Positions 3,498 through 19,826 of a stretch of DNA of 20,359 nt are shown here, in pieces. Made by a program: the position numbers and the translations under genes. The DNA is taken from positions 1-20,359 of IMG/VR virus record IMGVR_UViG_3300025062_000008; one strand, written 5' to 3'. Positions within the stretch are counted from its first letter, which is position 1. Every line of letters starts with the position of its first letter. The DNA comes from a virus. The notes beneath the pieces are model-generated. The model searched no databases and was not told the origin of the DNA. It was given only the letters and a program-made list of their open reading frames with translations.

Positions 3498-3842
3498 TTA
3501 TCCGTAAATGAAATCTGAGTTAGTAAAGCCGTATGTGCGTTGATCCCAATAGTCTTCTTGAGGTTCGTAGCACTCGATAGGGTTATCAGCTAGATACTTG
3601 TCAATAACCGTCTTAATCGGCTGCTCGTGCTCGATAAGCATCACGTAGTCATAATCTTCACTGATACCCTCAATCTCTTGGTAGCAATCACCTACGCTTA
3701 GCAGGTTGATGTTCTGTCTAGCATCAGTCTCAAAGTAAATCTCAACTGATACATCGTTTGGCATTGCGATATAAACCGTACCGCTTGTACCTGATTCGCT
3801 TAACTCGTGGTCAGCATTGCTATCTAGTTTAAAATTTGTCAT
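3498..3842 (-). CDS. hypothetical acidic protein, 114 aa
   Basis: Unrecognised acidic protein. The frame is open from 3887, but the ATG at 3842 (MTNFKLDS) has an AAGGA Shine-Dalgarno at the proper distance. The upstream part of the frame overlaps a stable hairpin (3865-3898), so I chose the internal start, giving 114 residues. The N-terminal half is beta-rich (SGTVYIAMPNDVSVEIYFE). The C-terminal half is rich in Tyr, Asp and Glu, with a composition like the small acidic early proteins that some phages use as host-protein inhibitors or DNA mimics. That comparison is only compositional. It is the second gene of the left operon, behind the hairpin leader. Confidence 0.65.
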   Translation of the reverse strand: MTNFKLDSNADHELSESGTSGTVYIAMPNDVSVEIYFETDARQNINLLSVGDCYQEIEGISEDYDYVMLIEHEQPIKTVIDKYLADNPIECYEPQEDYWDQRTYGFTNSDFIYG

Positions 3843-3864
3843 AATGATTTCCTTGTTAGTAAGT

Positions 3865-3902
3865 AAGCCCTGTCTGGTGTCCGCCAATCGCAGGGCTTTT
3901 TT
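3865..3902 (+). terminator. hairpin with T-run (antisense terminator or leader element)
   Basis: A perfect 8-bp stem (3865-3872 with 3891-3898, AAGCCCTG/CAGGGCTT) is followed on the plus strand by a six-T run, the form of a rho-independent terminator. The flanking genes run on the minus strand, so in the sense transcript it reads as an A-run, a hairpin, then the ribosome-binding site of the 3498-3842 gene. A similar element sits at 7102-7158 in the rightward operon. Confidence 0.55.
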
Positions 3903-3909
3903 GTGGCTG

Positions 3910-4110
3910 TTATTCAGGGTCTAATTCGATAACGTCTAAATTGATTTGAAGTGTTTCCAGCCTTTCTTTGATAAGACCTTTGATTGCAGGCTGAGTCCTA
4001 TTGCTGGCTATAGCTCGCTCCATATCTTCTATTTCTGCTTTTAGTGCATTGACCGTATAAATTGATGTATCTCTATACGCCTTAAGTACTTTCATTTCCG
4101 CTTCACTCAT
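3910..4110 (-). CDS. first gene of left operon, small helical protein
   Basis: Protein of 66 residues, predicted almost entirely alpha-helical with alternating charge (KAEIEDMERAIA, IKERLETLQINL), probably a helical hairpin or coiled-coil dimer. An excellent Shine-Dalgarno (AAGGAG) precedes the ATG. It is the first gene after the leftward promoter, the position held by N in lambda, but it lacks the Arg-rich N terminus of N-type antiterminators. I therefore leave the function open. Confidence 0.7.
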   Translation of the reverse strand: MSEAEMKVLKAYRDTSIYTVNALKAEIEDMERAIASNRTQPAIKGLIKERLETLQINLDVIELDPE

Positions 4111-4136
4111 ACCCTTATCTCCTTAGTTAACTCAGC

Positions 4137-4162
4137 ATTGGCAGCTAGTGATAACTGCCAAT
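4137..4162 (-). promoter_or_regulatory. hairpin in left-operon leader
   Basis: Perfect 8-bp inverted repeat (ATTGGCAG at 4137-4144, CTGCCAAT at 4155-4162) with a 10-base loop, inside the roughly 120-base untranslated leader between the leftward promoter and the first gene. There is no T-run, so it is not an intrinsic terminator. Its location would suit an antitermination (nut-like) site or mRNA stabilisation; neither is proven. Confidence 0.4.
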
Positions 4163-4237
4163 AATTAGTTAGCTTTTAAATTGAGTTGTTAAATAGCTAT
4201 CGCTGCATCGTCTGCGTTGTTCGTTGCGATATGTGTA

Positions 4238-4265
4238 TTATTAAACAAAACGTTTAACGTGTCAA
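4238..4265 (-). promoter_or_regulatory. leftward early promoter (PL-like)
   Basis: On the minus strand, TTGACA (4260-4265) is followed after 16 bases by TAATAA (4238-4243). A perfect repressor operator (4241-4257) fills the spacer and overlaps the -10 box, so a bound repressor would block polymerase directly. The layout mirrors the rightward promoter at 5259-5287. It should drive the genes from 4110 leftward. Confidence 0.75.
4241..4257. promoter_or_regulatory. operator OL1
   Basis: 17-bp palindrome with perfect 6-bp arms TTAAAC/GTTTAA and a 5-bp centre (AAAAC). It lies between the -35 and -10 boxes of the leftward promoter. The same sequence pattern recurs in the control region between repressor and Cro, which identifies it as a binding site for those proteins. 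Confidence 0.75.
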
Positions 4266-4273
4266 CCACTTTA

Positions 4274-4290
4274 TTAAACAAAATGTTAAA
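4274..4290. promoter_or_regulatory. operator OL2
   Basis: One perfect half-site TTAAAC (4274-4279), centre AAAAT, and an imperfect second half (GTTAAA). It lies upstream of the leftward promoter, with its centre 33 bp from that of OL1. A further isolated half-site TTAAAC occurs at 4294-4299 and may be a third, weaker site. Confidence 0.6.
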
Positions 4291-4319
4291 ATTTTAAACA
4301 TAATGATTTTTCAGGGCGC

Positions 4320-4344
4320 AAAAAAACCGCCCTATAAAGGACGG
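4320..4344 (-). terminator. terminator downstream of repressor
   Basis: Read on the minus strand, a 7-bp stem (4338-4344 with 4327-4333, including one G-U pair) with a 4-base loop is followed by seven T residues. It lies downstream of the repressor and the small ORF at 4366-4485, and would keep repressor transcription out of the leftward promoter. Confidence 0.75.
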
Positions 4345-4365
4345 CTTGTTTAATAATAGTTTATC

Positions 4366-4485
4366 TTAATCCCAGTCTATGGCTTCTCTATAGACGCACC
4401 AACCAAACGGCAAATCAATTACCAGCTTTGAGTGTGCTATCAAGTGACACACCCACAAGTAAGACCATTCATTAGTATTCGGCAT
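4366..4485 (-). CDS. possible small Trp-rich protein behind repressor, 39 aa
   Basis: Candidate 39-residue ORF that begins MPNTNEWSYLWVCH and ends REAIDWD. It contains four Trp and two Cys residues and a mildly hydrophobic centre (LIAHSKLVIDLPFGW), too short and broken for a clear membrane helix. The ATG overlaps the end of the repressor gene by 14 bases, with a GGTGGG ribosome-binding-like sequence upstream, and the stop lies 22 bases before the terminator. Its place matches that of genes expressed with the repressor in lysogens, such as lambda rex. Its short length means it could be a chance frame. Confidence 0.4.
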   Translation of the reverse strand: MPNTNEWSYLWVCHLIAHSKLVIDLPFGWCVYREAIDWD

Positions 4486-5191
4486 ATTTACCCACCACTT
4501 TACCTACCAAGTTACAGTCACCCATAGGTAGCATTTTCTGTTCATGCCAATCAGGGTTAAGCGGCTTTAAGTACATATCATCAAAAGTTTCACCTATAAC
4601 CAACTGCTTAAAAGTTGCATCTGTATCGTCGTTGCATTGGACAACAACAAGATCACTATCTCTCAGCGCAAATAACCCAGTTTGTGGCTCAACATAGATA
4701 ATATCATCCGGCTTAAACTCGGGCATCATGCTGCGACCTTGAACCCTTAAAGCAAAGCCTAGCTTAGATAGATTAGGTGGTCTAGGCGCTTCACCTATCA
4801 CATCGTCCATAGTTACCGGCTCAGTGTTAGACCAACTGCCAGCCGCTACCCAGCTCAAAACAGGAACCATGCCTGAGTTACTAGCCATTCGTGCGCTTGT
4901 TGTTCCTTGTGGCGTAGGGTTGCCATTATTCTTTGTTCCATTCTCTATATCTCTTATCTGCTGCATTAAATCGCTGTGAGTTGGTTTTTTAATTTCACCC
5001 TCACCCGTCAGAACCCAATCCAAACTTAAACCAAAAACACGCGATACATCCATCGCGCCATTCTTAGATATGCCGCGCTTAGACCAGTTGGTTATGTTTT
5101 GTGGCGATGCGTTTATTTTAGATGCAAGCGCAGAAGGCTCTAGTCCTGTCTGCTCAAATACCCTTGCCATAGTTGGATGCGTGTCATTCAT
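4472..5191 (-). CDS. LexA/CI-like S24 phage repressor
   Basis: Main immunity repressor, 239 residues. An N-terminal helix-turn-helix (about residues 8-60, with ALASKINASPQNITNWSKRG) is joined by a Gln/Asn-rich linker to a C-terminal S24 autoprotease domain (about 108-235). The expected cleavage site is A117-G118 in SWVAAGSW. The catalytic Ser is S154 in GRSMMPEF, and the catalytic Lys is K195 in ATFKQL. It therefore should be cleaved with the help of activated RecA during the SOS response, inducing the prophage. Its operators are the TTAAAC-N5-GTTTAA palindromes. The ribosome-binding site (AAGGTG) lies inside operator 5194-5210, which suggests tight autoregulation. Divergent from the Cro gene, as in lambdoid phages. 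Confidence 0.92.
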   Translation of the reverse strand: MNDTHPTMARVFEQTGLEPSALASKINASPQNITNWSKRGISKNGAMDVSRVFGLSLDWVLTGEGEIKKPTHSDLMQQIRDIENGTKNNGNPTPQGTTSARMASNSGMVPVLSWVAAGSWSNTEPVTMDDVIGEAPRPPNLSKLGFALRVQGRSMMPEFKPDDIIYVEPQTGLFALRDSDLVVVQCNDDTDATFKQLVIGETFDDMYLKPLNPDWHEQKMLPMGDCNLVGKVVGKYAEY

Positions 5192-5193
5192 AT

Positions 5194-5210
5194 CTAAACA
5201 CCTTGTTTAA
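5194..5210. promoter_or_regulatory. operator over repressor ribosome-binding site
   Basis: 17-bp site CTAAAC-N5-GTTTAA with one mismatch between arms. It starts 3 bp upstream of the repressor ATG and contains the AAGGTG ribosome-binding sequence of that gene, on the opposite strand. It would act far downstream of the repressor promoter, so binding should serve as a roadblock on repressor transcription. Confidence 0.6.
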
Positions 5211-5233
5211 GTTTATGACATTAAAACAATTAT

Positions 5234-5250
5234 TTAAACGTTTTTGTTAA
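5234..5250. promoter_or_regulatory. operator in central control region
   Basis: TTAAAC with centre GTTTT and an imperfect second arm (TGTTAA). It lies upstream of the rightward promoter -35 box and in the region where the repressor's own promoter is expected. I could not pick a convincing -35/-10 pair for that promoter. Confidence 0.6.
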
Positions 5251-5258
5251 ACAAAGAC

Positions 5259-5287
5259 TTGACCTCTTTAAACATTTTGTTTAATAT
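5259..5287 (+). promoter_or_regulatory. rightward early promoter (PR-like)
   Basis: TTGACC (5259-5264), a 17-base spacer, and TAATAT (5282-5287), close to the sigma-70 consensus. The operator at 5268-5284 fills the spacer and overlaps the -10 box. It should drive the Cro-like gene and the replication operon; the leader before the Cro ATG is only some 25 bases. Confidence 0.8.
5268..5284. promoter_or_regulatory. operator OR within rightward promoter
   Basis: Perfect arms TTAAAC/GTTTAA around ATTTT. It lies between the -35 and -10 boxes of the rightward promoter. Downstream, 5291-5301 (CTAAAC then AAAAC) looks like a degenerate half-site near the transcription start. Confidence 0.75.
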
Positions 5288-5318
5288 CTACTAAACAAAA
5301 CGATGAAAGGAAATAACC

Positions 5319-5504
5319 ATGAGCGACAAAGAGCTAATAATGAAGCTAGGAGGGGTAAATGTTGTTTCTAGCTACCTCGGTCTTAGCTATCAATGCGTAT
5401 TCAACTGGCTATCTCGCGGTATTCCAGCTCAAGTAAAGCTAGATCATCGCGACATATTCCTTACTGATGACCCACAACCCCTAGAGGACTTAGAACATGG
5501 CTAG
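5319..5504 (+). CDS. Cro-like repressor
   Basis: Small DNA-binding protein of 61 residues, the first gene of the rightward operon and divergent from the S24 repressor. Residues 6-45 fit the Cro/YdaS-type helix-turn-helix (KLGGVNVVSSYLGLSYQCVFNWLSRG, then IPA), a pattern typical of lambdoid Cro proteins. It should bind the same TTAAAC-N5-GTTTAA operators and favour lytic growth by shutting off the repressor. AAAGGA precedes the ATG. Its end overlaps the next gene by 8 bases. Confidence 0.85.
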   Translation: MSDKELIMKLGGVNVVSSYLGLSYQCVFNWLSRGIPAQVKLDHRDIFLTDDPQPLEDLEHG

Positions 5505-5730
5505 TAAATCAAAACTCACTGACTGCATACCAACCCACTTAACCCGCGATAGCGCAAATGCGGTTAAAAACTTTGCGTTCGATGAAGATGCAACGCCTAG
5601 TCAGTGGGTTAGACGCTTGATTGATGATGAAATCAACCGTCGCCGCCTACAAGCTCAGGCTACGTTACGAGCACTTGGCAATCTAGCGAACGATGCGAAC
5701 GAAACGAACGATTTTGAGGATGAAGAATAA
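5497..5730 (+). CDS. ribbon-helix-helix-like regulator
   Basis: Protein of 77 residues. Residues 10-50 fit a ribbon-helix-helix DNA-binding fold: a strand-like IPTHLTR, a first helix DSANAVKNFAFDE, then TPSQWVRRLIDDEINRRR. The tail is acidic and contains a three-residue repeat (A/T-N-D/E) encoded by a 9-bp tandem repeat at 5686-5712. It occupies the position of cII in lambda, so a regulatory role at an early promoter is likely but not shown. It overlaps Cro by 8 bases and shares one base with the Rha gene start (TAATG). Confidence 0.6.
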   Translation: MASKSKLTDCIPTHLTRDSANAVKNFAFDEDATPSQWVRRLIDDEINRRRLQAQATLRALGNLANDANETNDFEDEE

Positions 5731-6233
5731 TGGAATTAATACTAAGCGAATTATTTAGTAGCAACACAGCCAAGATGACCAGTCTTGATATTGCGGAACT
5801 GGTTGGCAGTCGTCACGACAAAGTTAAGCAAAGTATTGAACGCTTAGCGACCAATAGAAAAAACAGAAACGCAATTATCGCATTACCCCCAATGGGGGAA
5901 GCGTCATTCAAAGACAGTATTGGCAAGACTCAGCACACCACAATTTATATTTTCTCAGGCGACCAAGCCAAACGAGACAGCCTGATTGTAGTCGCTCAGT
6001 TATCACCCGAATTTACCGCCGATATTGTTGACCGCTGGATTTATTTAGAAAAGCAAAACCGGTCATTAACCAAGAAGCTTGAATATTGGCAAAGAAAAGA
6101 AATGGTCGATTATGCAGAGGGTTCTTTTCATGGCAGAGGTTTAGCTAAGCGTAAAGAAACCAAGAAGTTAAACCACGGCAAGATTGATGAAATATCAAAT
6201 CAAATGCAGCCAGAGCTGGGGTTAAGACAATGA
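5730..6233 (+). CDS. rha: Rha family phage regulatory protein
   Basis: Protein of 167 residues matching the Rha (pRha) family of phage regulators. The winged-helix-like N-terminal part contains MTSLDIAELVGSRHDKVKQSIERL, the family hallmark, followed by a beta-rich stretch with LIVVAQLSPEFTADIVDRW (residues 89-107), also typical. The C-terminal part (after about 120) is basic and includes FHGRGLAKRK. Rha proteins are known to interfere with phage growth in hosts lacking IHF; the mechanism is poorly understood. The start overlaps the upstream gene's stop codon by one base. Confidence 0.85.
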   Translation: MELILSELFSSNTAKMTSLDIAELVGSRHDKVKQSIERLATNRKNRNAIIALPPMGEASFKDSIGKTQHTTIYIFSGDQAKRDSLIVVAQLSPEFTADIVDRWIYLEKQNRSLTKKLEYWQRKEMVDYAEGSFHGRGLAKRKETKKLNHGKIDEISNQMQPELGLRQ

Positions 6234-6367
6234 GCAACTACGACGAACGCGTGAACGATGAAGCAGACGAACACGCGCAGATGATGAATAAAGGGCGACC
6301 GATAAACATACTCGAACTTATCGAGTTAAAGCGAAACGAAATCAAGGACGACAACAATGAGAAGTGA
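6230..6367 (+). CDS. small acidic hypothetical protein, 45 aa
   Basis: Short ORF starting MSNYDERVNDEADEH and ending KDDNNEK, 45 residues, strongly charged and probably helical. It starts inside the Rha stop codon (ATGA) and overlaps the next gene by 11 bases, so it fits the operon exactly. I recognise no family and cannot assign a role. Confidence 0.6.
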   Translation: MSNYDERVNDEADEHAQMMNKGRPINILELIELKRNEIKDDNNEK

Positions 6368-6569
6368 ATATGACGCGATGCAAGGCTTGGCAAGTAGTAG
6401 CGCACAAGCAAAGCAAGAATATGTAGCAAGCCGAAATATTGTTACTAACTTTGAAGAAAGCGAGCGTAAGAAGCGTGTAAACGAAGCGTTTTGGCGCGGT
6501 GTGATGCGGTTTATTACTCAAATGACGGTAGTGCTGATCGCCGCTTATATGTTTTTTAATTTTATCTAA
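6357..6569 (+). CDS. small C-terminally anchored membrane protein
   Basis: Protein of 70 residues with a hydrophilic helical N-terminal part, a basic stretch (ESERKKR) and a single hydrophobic segment at about residues 51-70 (MRFITQMTVVLIAAYMFF). This is the form of a tail-anchored inner-membrane protein with the N terminus in the cytoplasm. No family recognised. As an early-operon gene it could alter the host membrane or exclude other phages, but this is inference. Confidence 0.65.
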   Translation: MRSEYDAMQGLASSSAQAKQEYVASRNIVTNFEESERKKRVNEAFWRGVMRFITQMTVVLIAAYMFFNFI

Positions 6570-6578
6570 GGATTAGAG

Positions 6579-7103
6579 ATGTCACTAACAGAACAATATT
6601 TCCCACCATTAAACCGCTATCCGAACACAAACAAAGGCGTATCGATGGAAGCGCAGGAAGCATGGCTTAAACGCTTTCCGCAAAAACGCGCTGAGAACAA
6701 ACCAAACGGGGGAATCATTCAGAGCGTAGCAGACACTAGAGAGTTATTTTTACGCCCAATGAGCGTAGCAGACCGCAAGAAAGCAATCGCACAGGCTCAA
6801 CGTGAGCACAGACAAGCCCTTAGAAATCTAGCCAAGCAAGATGCAATGGACGCAAAAGAGATAGCCAAGCAGCTAACGGTATGGCGTAGAGAGAATAGAA
6901 AGAAAGCGGAATCCGGCTTATCAACAGTTGGTCAAGATGTTTTTGACACGATGAAAGAGCAAGGGTTTTACGAAGTGGCAGATTTCAAAATGTCATATAA
7001 ATATTTGCAGCAAATCTTAGCAAAAATCAGAGCATTGGGTTATTCGACCACTGCTGAAAGAAAAGGCAAGAAAATCGTTCGATACGTTTTGAACAAGCAA
7101 TAA
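6579..7103 (+). CDS. hypothetical protein with possible winged-helix C terminus
   Basis: Protein of 174 residues of no recognised family. The central part (about 60-110) is a long, highly charged helix (KKAIAQAQREHRQALRNLAKQDAMDAKEIAKQL), probably coiled coil. The last 60 residues look like a winged helix: helices around VGQDVFDTMKEQ and YKYLQQILAKIRALGY, then a basic beta hairpin (TTAERKGKKIVRYVLNK). A DNA-binding role in regulation or replication is plausible. A GGATTAGAG sequence precedes the start. Confidence 0.65.
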   Translation: MSLTEQYFPPLNRYPNTNKGVSMEAQEAWLKRFPQKRAENKPNGGIIQSVADTRELFLRPMSVADRKKAIAQAQREHRQALRNLAKQDAMDAKEIAKQLTVWRRENRKKAESGLSTVGQDVFDTMKEQGFYEVADFKMSYKYLQQILAKIRALGYSTTAERKGKKIVRYVLNKQ

Positions 7104-7158
7104 AAAACCCTAACGACTGGAATCATTAGGGCTTACAACTTAACTGGAGTATTACGAC
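7102..7158 (+). ncRNA. hairpin leader of antirepressor gene, possibly C4-like
   Basis: Directly after the preceding stop lies an A-run, then a stem CCCTAA (7108-7113)/TTAGGG (7126-7131), extended by two pairs past one mismatch, with loop CTGGAA. The following ribosome-binding region repeats ACTGGA. The phage antirepressor mRNAs of P1/P7 are controlled by the C4 antisense RNA, a structured element just upstream of the ant gene, so position and shape suggest a similar role. I could not show the required complementarity to the start region, so the assignment is tentative. Confidence 0.35.
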
Positions 7159-7878
7159 ATGAATATTAGCAACTCAAGTAGCAACAACGGAGATTATGCC
7201 ATGCAATTACCAACTATTCAAGAAAATAACGATTTGCAGCAAGCCGTATCAGCTCGTGACTTATATAACTTCCTTCAGCCGAGTGAGCGTTTTAACAATT
7301 GGTTTGAACGTCAATTGCAGTATGGCTTTGTTGAGAATATTGATTATTTAGGGTGTGAAGTTTTTAACACCCTAGCTAGACAATCCCTTCAGGACTATTT
7401 TCTTAGTGTTGATATGGCAAAAGAAATATCAATGATCCAGCGTTCAGATAAAGGCAAGCAAGCGCGTCAATACTTTATTGAGTGCGAACGCAAAGCACAA
7501 CAGCTAACAGTACCAGCAATACAAATACCGCAATCATTCGCAGAGGCTTTACAGCTTGCAGCCAACCAAGCGTTACAGATTGAGCAAGACGCACCAAAAG
7601 TAGCACATTACGACAAGATTGTTGACCGCCACACACTACTCACAGCAACACAAGTTGGTCAAAAGATTGGTCTATCTGCTGTGATGTTGAATCGCGTACT
7701 TGATGAAATTGGCGTTTATAACAAAGCCCTAAAGCGCGGTAGAGCGTTCAAGCAATGGTTTATCGATAAAGAGCTTGGCGAGATGAAACAAACGGATATG
7801 GGCTATTCACAGCCGTTATTCAGCCTCAAAGGTGAGGCATGGGTAGTTGAGCGTTTGGCTAGTGAGGGGGCTGCGTAA
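7159..7878 (+). CDS. AntA/KilAC antirepressor
   Basis: Protein of 239 residues with two recognised phage domains. AntA/AntB-type antirepressor domain: residues about 20-115, with AVSARDLYNFL, RFNNWFERQ, FVENIDY and the end KGKQARQYFIECER. KilA-C/ANT domain: about 140-235, with LLTATQVGQKIGLSAVMLNRVLDE, then GRAFKQWF and the closing GEAWVVERL. Proteins of this kind inactivate the phage repressor or act as regulators of lytic growth. A second ATG in frame at 7201 (MQLPTIQ) also has a GGAG sequence, so the N terminus may be 14 residues shorter. A hairpin leader precedes it. Confidence 0.85.
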   Translation: MNISNSSSNNGDYAMQLPTIQENNDLQQAVSARDLYNFLQPSERFNNWFERQLQYGFVENIDYLGCEVFNTLARQSLQDYFLSVDMAKEISMIQRSDKGKQARQYFIECERKAQQLTVPAIQIPQSFAEALQLAANQALQIEQDAPKVAHYDKIVDRHTLLTATQVGQKIGLSAVMLNRVLDEIGVYNKALKRGRAFKQWFIDKELGEMKQTDMGYSQPLFSLKGEAWVVERLASEGAA

Positions 7879-13221: not shown

Positions 13222-13430
13222 CTGTATTAAGCTGCAATTACTTGTACGAGCAGCCATCTAATATAAGCCGTAACGCCTATCAAAGAATCGCAATTTTACG
13301 GCTATTCTATGAGCCATACGTGAATGGCTAGCCTAATAAGCTAAAGATGAAATTAGGAAATAATCTGGCTGCAATTTATTTGTTGGTTAGTGAAAAACTT
13401 TTAGTAATCATCACGCCTATTTTATTCAAG
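13222..13430 (+). ncRNA. structured late leader RNA
   Basis: Region without a gene. It contains an 8-bp stem AGCCGTAA/TTACGGCT (within 13264-13303), a 6-bp stem AGCCAT/ATGGCT (within 13310-13328) and a repeated GCTGCAATT. It would be transcribed from the promoter at 13192 up to the terminator. By position it corresponds to the short late leader made from lambda PR' in the absence of Q. No tRNA is seen. Confidence 0.45.
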
Positions 13431-13460
13431 CCCTATCATTAACGTGATGGGGTTTTTTTT
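13431..13460 (+). terminator. rho-independent terminator (tR'-like)
   Basis: 8-bp stem CCCTATCA/TGATGGGG (one G-U pair) with a 6-base loop and eight T residues. It ends the leader from the late promoter; Q-modified polymerase would read through it. Confidence 0.85.
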
Positions 13461-13782: not shown

Positions 13783-13912
13783 TGTAGATTACAGCCAGTC
13801 ATTACGGCAGATACTCGATAGCGAGTGTGATGTAAGTGATGATATGGACAACGCGTATTTATACGATGATGCGTGTGATAAGTATGATGATTTAAACACC
13901 TTGCCCACTTAA
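13775..13912 (+). CDS. small acidic hypothetical protein, 45 aa
   Basis: Asp/Tyr-rich ORF of 45 residues (VCDVDYSQSLRQILDSE... ending NTLPT) starting at GTG 13775, with AAGG 8 or more bases upstream. It overlaps the end of the basic 55-residue ORF by 8 bases, and its last codons run into the terminator stem at 13903. An acidic protein encoded right behind a basic one could be a partner pair, but this is guesswork. Confidence 0.45.
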   Translation: MCDVDYSQSLRQILDSECDVSDDMDNAYLYDDACDKYDDLNTLPT

Positions 13913-13926
13913 TTGTGGGCTTTTTT
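13903..13926 (+). terminator. rho-independent terminator
   Basis: 6-bp GC-rich stem GCCCAC (13903-13908)/GTGGGC (13915-13920) with a 6-base loop and six T residues, ending the group of three tiny ORFs and lying just before the metallopeptidase-like gene. Confidence 0.8.
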
Positions 13927-15019: not shown

Positions 15020-16532
15020 TGTTAATAAAAAATCAATTATAAAAAGCCGATGCGAGACTGAGCACCTATTCTTTGTCAGATACTTTTTCAAGCAACGCAT
15101 GGGCGATAAGTTTTTAACCAACTGGCACCATCATCTAATTGCTTATGAGATTGACCGATTAATACAGAGAGCGCAGGACGGGTTAGAGACTGAGAACATC
15201 ATCTTTAACTTGCCCCCTGGTGGTTCTAAAACCGAAATGGCGATGAATATTATCCCTAGAGGATTAGCATTAAATCCACGCTCACGGTTTTTATATCTAT
15301 CATTCAGTGACAGTCTAGTGACGGATGTATCAGCAACAGCTCGCACCATTGTTAAGTCTAAATACTTTCAAGAGTTGTGGAATGTTGCTATCTCTAGTGA
15401 CACAGACGCAAAAGGCTCGTGGAAAACAGATATCGAGGGTTTTGAGGGTGGTCATATTTATGCTGCCTCAATGGGTGGTCAGGTAACTGGTCGTCGTGCA
15501 GGTCGTATGTCAAAAGAGTTTAACGGACTCATAGTTTTGGATGATCCGCTTAAACCTGAGGACGCGTTTAGTGATACTAAGCGCACAGCCGCTAACAGAA
15601 AGCTGCTTAATACAGTAAAAAGTCGTAAAGCAAAAAGTGACACGCCCATTATCTTGATTATGCAGCGATTGCACAGCCAAGACCCAACCCAATTCATCTT
15701 AGATGGCAACATGGGCGGTAAATGGCGGCACGTCAACATACCGGCATTGATTGATGATGCGTTTATCAAGACGTTACCGCCTAGCATTGCAAAGTTAGTG
15801 CCTACGGACGTTGAGCGTGACGACAAGGGCAGACAAAGCTACTGGGCTGCTAAAGAGTCGCTGTTATCGCTGCTAGAGTTAGAGCAGGGCGGTAGTGATA
15901 AAGACGGTCAAAAAGTCAGTCGCTACACATTCCACAGCCAATACATGCAAACGCCTACTAAGCTTGGCGGTGGATTAATCAAAGCCTTGTACTTTGGTCG
16001 CTACACGGTGCAACCTAAGCTCAAATGGTTAGCAATTTTTGCTGATACCGCGCAAAAGACAAAAGAGGTTAATGACTACAGTGTCTTTATGGCAGCAGGT
16101 GAGGACTATAGCGGCAATCTCGTTATAATCGATGTATTGCGTGGTAAGTGGGAAGCGCCTGAATTAATGGTTAAGGCAAGCGCATTTATCAAAAAGCATA
16201 ACGATGACACAAACACGCCTAATCTGCGCTATGTGGCGATTGAGGACAAAGCAAGTGGCACAGGGTTAATACAAACCCTAAAGACCACTAGCCGCATATC
16301 AATCAAAGCTGTGCAGCGCAATACAGATAAGCTCACACGGTTTATGGACGCACACCCCTACATTGAGGACGGCATTGTTTATTTGCCGCTTAATGCTAAC
16401 TGGGTTGGTGATTTTATAGACGAGGCTGAGGCATTTAGTGCTGATATGTCACATGACCATGATGACCAAATCGACCCGCTCATTGATTTAATTAATATCG
16501 GTAGGCAAGCATTCAGCTACGACAACATATAA
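15009..16532 (+). CDS. terL: terminase large subunit
   Basis: DNA-packaging motor, 507 residues. ATPase domain: Walker A variant PPGGSKT at 69-75, Walker B LIVLDDP at 174-180, and coupling motif LIMQRLH. Nuclease domain (RNase H-like): D346 in AIFADTAQK, E412 in VAIEDKASG and D485/D486 in DHDDQID, the three acidic clusters expected for the headful or cos cleavage site. It translocates DNA into the head with the portal and cuts the genome. The frame opens at 14979, but ATG 15009 has AAGGA 8 bases upstream; ATG 15006 is equally possible. Confidence 0.92.
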   Translation: MSTDVNKKSIIKSRCETEHLFFVRYFFKQRMGDKFLTNWHHHLIAYEIDRLIQRAQDGLETENIIFNLPPGGSKTEMAMNIIPRGLALNPRSRFLYLSFSDSLVTDVSATARTIVKSKYFQELWNVAISSDTDAKGSWKTDIEGFEGGHIYAASMGGQVTGRRAGRMSKEFNGLIVLDDPLKPEDAFSDTKRTAANRKLLNTVKSRKAKSDTPIILIMQRLHSQDPTQFILDGNMGGKWRHVNIPALIDDAFIKTLPPSIAKLVPTDVERDDKGRQSYWAAKESLLSLLELEQGGSDKDGQKVSRYTFHSQYMQTPTKLGGGLIKALYFGRYTVQPKLKWLAIFADTAQKTKEVNDYSVFMAAGEDYSGNLVIIDVLRGKWEAPELMVKASAFIKKHNDDTNTPNLRYVAIEDKASGTGLIQTLKTTSRISIKAVQRNTDKLTRFMDAHPYIEDGIVYLPLNANWVGDFIDEAEAFSADMSHDHDDQIDPLIDLINIGRQAFSYDNI

Positions 16533-18930: not shown

Positions 18931-18956
18931 ATAACGCCAATATAAATAAAACAAAA

Positions 18957-18980
18957 CCCCACCTAACCGTGGGGTTTTTT
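18957..18980 (+). terminator. rho-independent terminator
   Basis: 6-bp stem CCCCAC (18957-18962)/GTGGGG (18969-18974) with a 6-base loop and six T residues, between the 93-residue unknown protein and the head morphogenesis gene. Presumably bypassed by Q-modified polymerase. Confidence 0.85.
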
Positions 18981-19004
18981 AATGCCAATTTAAAAGGCTC
19001 AATC

Positions 19005-19826
19005 ATGGACTACAAACTATCTGAGCTAGTCAATAGCGACAAAGATATTGAGCTGCCTCAAATTGTCGAGCGTTTATCATCTGAGCGTGAATATCGCAGG
19101 TTAATGCGCTCAATCATACGTGATGCAAAACAAGCTGTTATTGACGATGTATTGCCTACCTACGCGCTATCTATCAGCGATGGTGCAATGATAACTGATG
19201 GGTTCTTTACGACTGCCGCCGACCTTGTAGCGTCACTTAGAGATAAGATGCGAGTAGCAGCCCTAAGAGTGTCATTAAGTGCAGGTATCTTGATTAATAG
19301 TGAGGCTCGCAGCTTAGATAGTAAGTTTGTGGCAGGGGTTAAGGCTAAAGCTAATACAGACATAAGCGCGTTTGTGCGTCCTGAGGATAACAGCCTGCTT
19401 ATTCGTAAGATAGTCGAGCGCAATACCGCACTGATTACCTCATTGACCGATGAAACGGTCGAGAAGATAACGCAAGCCGTTATTGATGCTCAAATCAAAG
19501 GGTTAAGCAAGGCACAGCTTAAAGACGAGCTGAGCAGGATATTGGGCAAACAAGCCAAACGTGCTGACCTTATCGCAAGTGACCAGATGGAGAAGCTCGC
19601 GGCGGATATTATCGCTGACCGTGCCAAGCAAGCCAACCTCAACATATATATATGGCAGTCAAGGCATGATGACAGGGTTCGTAGTTATCACCAATATTTA
19701 GATGGCAAACGCCAAGATACGCGAAACGCTAACCACGGTGACCACGGATTATTCCCTAGACAGCCGATAAGATGCCGATGTTCTGCTAAGTGGATAGTTG
19801 GTGGGCGTGGGTCGAAACTATATTAA
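19005..19826 (+). CDS. phage Mu gpF-like head morphogenesis protein
   Basis: Protein of 273 residues. A helical N-terminal part is followed by the C-terminal minor head protein domain of the gpF family, with WQSRHDDRVRSYHQYLDGK (217-235) and the closing PIRCRCSAKWI (C257-R-C259). These proteins bind the portal and are injected or packaged as minor head components. The start ATG 19005 has AAAAGG 8 bases upstream; the open frame extends to 18969 but there it overlaps the terminator. Order portal, gpF-like, then DUF2213 is usual for this phage type. Confidence 0.85.
   Translation: MDYKLSELVNSDKDIELPQIVERLSSEREYRRLMRSIIRDAKQAVIDDVLPTYALSISDGAMITDGFFTTAADLVASLRDKMRVAALRVSLSAGILINSEARSLDSKFVAGVKAKANTDISAFVRPEDNSLLIRKIVERNTALITSLTDETVEKITQAVIDAQIKGLSKAQLKDELSRILGKQAKRADLIASDQMEKLAADIIADRAKQANLNIYIWQSRHDDRVRSYHQYLDGKRQDTRNANHGDHGLFPRQPIRCRCSAKWIVGGRGSKLY

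Follow-up and report, generated by a model that had tools for sequence, protein, structure and literature searches.

Hairpins before early gene starts of Psychrobacter phages as predicted terminators of cis-encoded antisense RNAs

When two divergent early operons of one phage carry look-alike hairpins just before a ribosome-binding site, one of them in front of an antirepressor gene, it is important to ask which strand these hairpins serve: do they belong to the early mRNAs, to a trans-acting RNA common to both arms, or to transcripts that run against the genes? The question is raised by the window analysed here, a virus fragment of 20,359 bases. Its closest relatives are Psychrobacter phages and prophages, and its divergent early region is divided by a gene for a CI-like repressor (Table 1). 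Inverted repeats resembling TTAAACAAAACGTTTAA are repeated on either side of this gene (4240-4300 and 5205-5300) and probably represent the CI/Cro operators of both early promoters.

Table 1. Annotated and predicted features of the window
Feature	Position	Strand	Details
orf114	3498..3842	-	left-arm early gene, predicted cis target; homologs carry the same cassette type; no family matched in comparison with Pfam and PHROG
Predicted left antisense promoter	3817..3845	+	-35 TTGCTA 3817-3822, 17-nt spacer, extended -10 tgtCATAAT 3840-3845
Predicted left antisense RNA	3852..3905	+	about 54 nt, from promoter and terminator; 5' end complements orf114 Shine-Dalgarno region
Left intrinsic terminator	3865..3902	+	hairpin AAGCCCTGT...GCAGGGCTT, then T6
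Leftward early operon			starts with orf66, orf114
Leftward early promoter	4265-4237	-	TTGACA-17-AATAAT
CI-like repressor	4472-5191	-	divides the divergent early region
Rightward early promoter	5259-5287	+	TTGACC-17-TAATAT
Rightward early operon			Cro-position small DNA-binding protein, Rha-like regulator, other small genes, AntA/KilAC antirepressor, replication-O-like gene, more genes
Predicted right antisense RNA	7098..7186	-	about 89 nt, from promoter and terminator; complements antirepressor leader, RBS and ATG at 7159
Right intrinsic terminator	7102..7134	-	13-bp stem, then T6; T6 overlaps stop codon of upstream gene
AntA/KilAC antirepressor	7159..7878	+	predicted cis target; Pfam AntA 2.9e-22, ANT 1.5e-7
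Predicted right antisense promoter	7193..7221	-	-35 TTGAAT 7221-7216, 17-nt spacer, extended -10 tggCATAAT 7198-7193

Hairpins, strands and relatives

Re-reading of the sequence on both arms showed that the two hairpins described in the first-pass annotation are present, that both lie within polycistronic early operons, and that the T-runs of both point antisense to the genes, as had been claimed. On the sense strand, the left hairpin (minus strand) reads AAAAAAGCCCTGCGATTGGCGGACACCAGACAGGGCTTACTTACTAACAAGGAAATCATTATG and the right one (plus strand) AAAAAACCCTAACGACTGGAATCATTAGGGCTTACAACTTAACTGGAGTATTACGACATG. The sequence CGA(C/T)TGG is, indeed, shared by both, but GACTGG and GATTGG are common in the window, so that the 7-mer alone is no proof. 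When the right hairpin was searched in IMG/VR as an exact DNA pattern, no match came up. The hairpins in the late half of the window (13428-13455, 13903-13920 and 18953-18978) are ordinary sense or bidirectional terminators, unlike both early ones; a similarity to the Rfam family of Pseudomonas rnk leaders at 18945-19052 on the minus strand stays below threshold (35.1 bits against a cut-off of 55) and is probably due to chance.

Folding energies bear on the choice of strand. Relative to dinucleotide shuffles, the antisense strand folds with z = -3.9 on the left and -4.7 on the right, as against -2.6 and -0.6, respectively, for the sense strand; the right hairpin pairs much better on the antisense strand, which is the only one where its G-U pairs exist. 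Of 38 distinct hairpins, 30 are more stable when read on the antisense strand (p = 9e-5), partly via G-U pairs that read as A-C on the sense strand, but this contrast lacks a clean control, the plain terminators used for comparison being equally skewed on average, an effect of strand selection by the model, so that it counts as supporting evidence only. It is conceivable that the hairpins are sense-strand leader structures of the early mRNAs, that is, translation elements or attenuators, inasmuch as the sense hairpins fold too and occupy a fixed place before the ribosome-binding site. However, the right sense leader is close to its shuffles, the G-U pairs favor the antisense strand, and the promoters described below would be left unexplained; we consider such a role very improbable.

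In related phages, hairpins of the same type stand upstream of orf114 and AntA homologs and of other early genes. Before the orf114 and AntA homologs, stems and loops differ between related phages, and the left terminator type recurs in relatives with varied stems, the count of stem variation being taken from hairpins selected for pairing and thus not amounting to independent proof. When 33 phage loci, including the window, were scanned systematically, 34 hairpins with an A-run on their 5' side were found at gene starts, of which two were set aside and 32 kept. The genes that bear such cassettes are orf114 homologs, AntA, Rha, replication-O-like genes (repO), one mom, and genes of no assigned function. 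Two to three cassettes were found per phage; those within one phage mostly differ in the loop, and near-identical ones stand before different genes in different phages. In particular, the loop CGATTGGCGGACACCAGA or a one-base variant occurs in the window and in loci L004, L007, L148 and L172-L174.

Several further observations concern the range of such hairpins. In Psychrobacter phage vB_PmaS_Y8A (L149:39345), a DNA-modification gene of the mom type is preceded by a hairpin that resembles the cassettes, with a good antisense -10 (TGCTATACT) and a weak -35. A-run hairpins occur, too, ahead of early genes in phages of Gram-positive hosts (L059, L060, L074-L085, L092, L093, L104, L112, L120). Many of these are accompanied by an extended -10 on the antisense strand close to the gene start, e.g. 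TGTTATAAT, and as a group they score above controls (p = 0.0035); several of their loops are CCGACCAAAG, which is found in some Psychrobacter cassettes too. A boxA/nut-type antitermination site, suggested by downstream tails resembling GCTTTAACA, was set aside, as these tails are inconsistent and the promoter evidence explains more.

Predicted antisense promoters over early gene starts

In the window, predicted antisense promoters lie over the starts of both downstream genes. By score (E. coli-type weights were used for this and all other promoter predictions), they rank 5 (left) and 4 (right) among 40,646 window positions, and a generic scan had listed promoter-like sites where the two genes have their start codons. 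The left predicted -10 overlaps the orf114 start codon, and equivalent positions were found in related phages; the right predicted promoter sits within the antirepressor 5' region, and TTGAAT-17-tgCATAAT occurs likewise in L007, L008, L010 and L011. More generally, the antisense strand in related phages carries TTGNNN-17-CATAAT or TATACT at the equivalent place. The antirepressor gene itself has in-frame ATGs at 7159 and 7201, 42 bases apart and each preceded by a ribosome-binding site; the start of the L008 homolog apparently corresponds to the second.

The final, non-redundant set comprises 44 hairpins associated with gene starts, which come from Psychrobacter phages and from a small number of other Moraxellaceae genomes. 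Their mean promoter score is 10.2, as against 6.2 for 452 control gene starts in these phages (p = 5e-22). About 41 of the 44 have TTG at the first three -35 positions, 39 have a spacer of 17 nt, and 32 have an extended TG, the predicted promoters being weak in a few cassettes (L009 right, L149, L184). For the 19 dereplicated cassettes, which are contained in this set, the mean best score near the start is 9.49, and the corresponding mean over 452 control starts in their loci is 5.53 (p = 2.6e-10).

Such an enrichment could be an artefact of the start context, since ATTATG reads as CATAAT on the other strand. This possibility is countered by the control starts, by the -35 score at starts with a comparable -10 (3.10 versus 0.09 in controls, p = 1.1e-7), and by synonymous recoding of the first codons, upon which the mean score dropped in 300 of 300 trials, no single cassette being significant alone. 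In the orf114 homologs, conservation of the -35 could stem partly from conserved LDN codons; given that the target genes are unrelated, the common design is not explicable by shared protein sequence.

A further check came from a covariance model that describes the hairpin and spacer, with the promoter excluded, and was built on alignment A4 (A1-A3 were not structure-true). Run on 105 Psychrobacter genomes, it returned 11 new start-associated matches, all of which carry the promoter, with scores of 9.1-11.3 (L188, L193-L199, L201, L204, L206; the automatic filter for start codons found none in L197 and L199, where reading frames are nevertheless present). The 13 non-start matches, mostly ordinary bidirectional terminators, score 2.7-7.6 (L200, L202, L205, L207-L216). 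Two loci from a wider family search, L238 and L240, also have the promoter.

These results bear on the view that the hairpins face the antisense direction only to terminate stray transcription there and have no dedicated promoter. It accounts for the direction of the T-runs and for the excess, upstream of 714 gene starts, of antisense-type hairpins (A-run before, no T-run after) over sense-type terminators, 24 versus 8. Yet it predicts no promoter enrichment, whereas the enrichment is strong and the spacing of the promoter correct, which makes this view improbable.

A proposed cis-acting brake and its alternatives

Taken together, sequence and statistics directly support the hairpins, the direction of their T-runs, their association with gene starts, the enrichment and spacing of the promoters, and the better antisense folding. 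The reading that we prefer, with a probability of roughly 75%, is that the hairpins serve as intrinsic terminators, each for a short antisense RNA that is encoded in cis and predicted to lower the expression of the downstream early gene. An extended -10 promoter of sigma70 type, situated over the start codon of the early gene and the codons that follow it, would launch transcription backwards across the ribosome-binding region of that gene, to end at the hairpin between the gene and its upstream neighbor. The resulting RNA would be fully complementary to the early-mRNA leader and Shine-Dalgarno region, the predicted left RNA being short and covering only the upstream part of the Shine-Dalgarno sequence. 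The targets would be orf114 on the left arm and the AntA antirepressor on the right arm. By analogy with the action of P22 sar on ant, repression would most likely proceed via blocked ribosome loading and/or creation of an RNase III target. We infer that the promoters are active, that the RNA is made and represses, and that lytic genes are held back. Thus, the option of antisense terminators in the first-pass annotation was right, with the qualification that the hairpins appear to terminate dedicated, predicted antisense RNAs.

The main rival of this antisense-RNA reading accepts promoter and terminator as real and places the main effect in transcription: the backward-moving polymerase would collide with or block early transcription, and the RNA would be a by-product. 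A precedent is lambda pO, which has the same anatomy as the cassettes and reduces pR-driven readthrough (PMC3985674). Interference of this kind, however, requires no fixed cover of the ribosome-binding region and leaves the elaborate loops and the better antisense folding of the hairpins unexplained; as the main effect it appears unlikely, and it may act alongside antisense pairing.

The first-pass annotation had also raised the possibility of a C4-type antisense RNA at the antirepressor and of one RNA common to both arms and acting in trans. Antisense control of the antirepressor seems right as a general idea, but neither the C4 nor the shared-RNA part found support. No C4 match emerged from a lax scan against the whole of Rfam, up to E = 5, and a C4-type leader would lie on the other strand from the predicted RNA. 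The leaders of the window do have sequence in common, and raw duplex energies between them (-37.4 and -51.2 kcal/mol) exceed those of shuffles; this apparent link was rejected when the effect vanished with net energies and between-phage comparison. Net cross-pairing in nine phages is -1 to -13 kcal/mol, as against about -72 in cis, and is no better within phages than between unrelated ones. Moreover, the cassettes of one phage usually differ in the loop. A C4-like RNA serving both arms therefore seems most improbable, and the different loops of co-resident cassettes fit separate cis control.

Significance and relation to known systems

The recurrence of the cassette at unrelated early gene starts suggests that each of these genes has its own built-in RNA brake. 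Because co-resident loops differ while near-identical cassettes recur across phages before different genes, one may speculate, with little confidence, about a modular antisense-RNA kit, in which the RNA of a resident prophage could silence the early genes of an incoming phage that shares the cassette, providing RNA-based immunity independent of CI. The sar and oop RNAs are isolated examples from enteric phages; if the present reading is true, a recurrent cassette would make antisense braking standard in a phage group. It also offers a signature for finding others, namely, an antisense promoter over a start codon combined with a terminator before the ribosome-binding site, and a caution that hairpins before start codons need to be read on both strands.

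Among known systems, sar, OOP and C4 are presented as single cases in papers such as PMC12197685 and PMC3985674; titles and abstracts of open-access papers on Psychrobacter and Acinetobacter phages, a source that provides weak evidence, contained no cassettes like these. In cluster K mycobacteriophages, SAS/ESAS elements recur within one phage shortly before numerous start codons, and half of the elements contain inverted repeats (PMC3203893). SAS, however, is a sense motif of 13 bp, conserved and present in 11-19 copies, whereas the cassettes have varied stems and 2-3 copies per phage, and their conserved part is the antisense promoter. With the C4 RNA of P1/P7 the cassettes share antisense control of an antirepressor via the ribosome-binding region (PMC12197685), but there is no covariance-model match, and the predicted RNA comes from the opposite strand and from its own promoter.

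Lambda OOP/pO resembles the cassettes in its -10 tgtCATAAT (TTTGTCATAAT) at the start of gene O, its upstream terminator and its place in the right early operon; the pO -10 adjoins the O start codon (PMC3985674). The OOP RNA, of 77 nt, pairs with the 3' end of the upstream cII, whereas the RNA predicted here covers mainly the downstream leader and would end at about the upstream stop codon, no cII-like gene being annotated upstream. The OOP combination of a promoter at a replication gene start with an RNA antisense to the cII end is, accordingly, not seen here; the promoter layout matches.

The same anatomy is found in P22 sar, where the promoter lies within the antirepressor gene, at its 5' end, an RNA of 68-70 nt runs over the leader and ribosome-binding site, and the terminator is located between the upstream gene and ant (PMC2629481, PMC12197685); in coordinates, the RNA occupies 15021-15090 and the promoter 15097-15125, within ant. 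The cassettes likewise have an opposite-strand promoter, at the level of prediction, within the target 5' end and an intrinsic terminator upstream of the target ribosome-binding site. The target is an antirepressor on the right arm only, the other cassettes standing before Rha, repO-like, mom and other genes; in contrast to sar, the -10 overlaps the start codon in most cassettes, and the RNA is a predicted one. P22 has one sar, which lies in a separate immunity region. What is new here is that one phage has several different cassettes, that both early arms carry them, and that the genes downstream of them are unrelated (AntA, Rha, repO, orf114).
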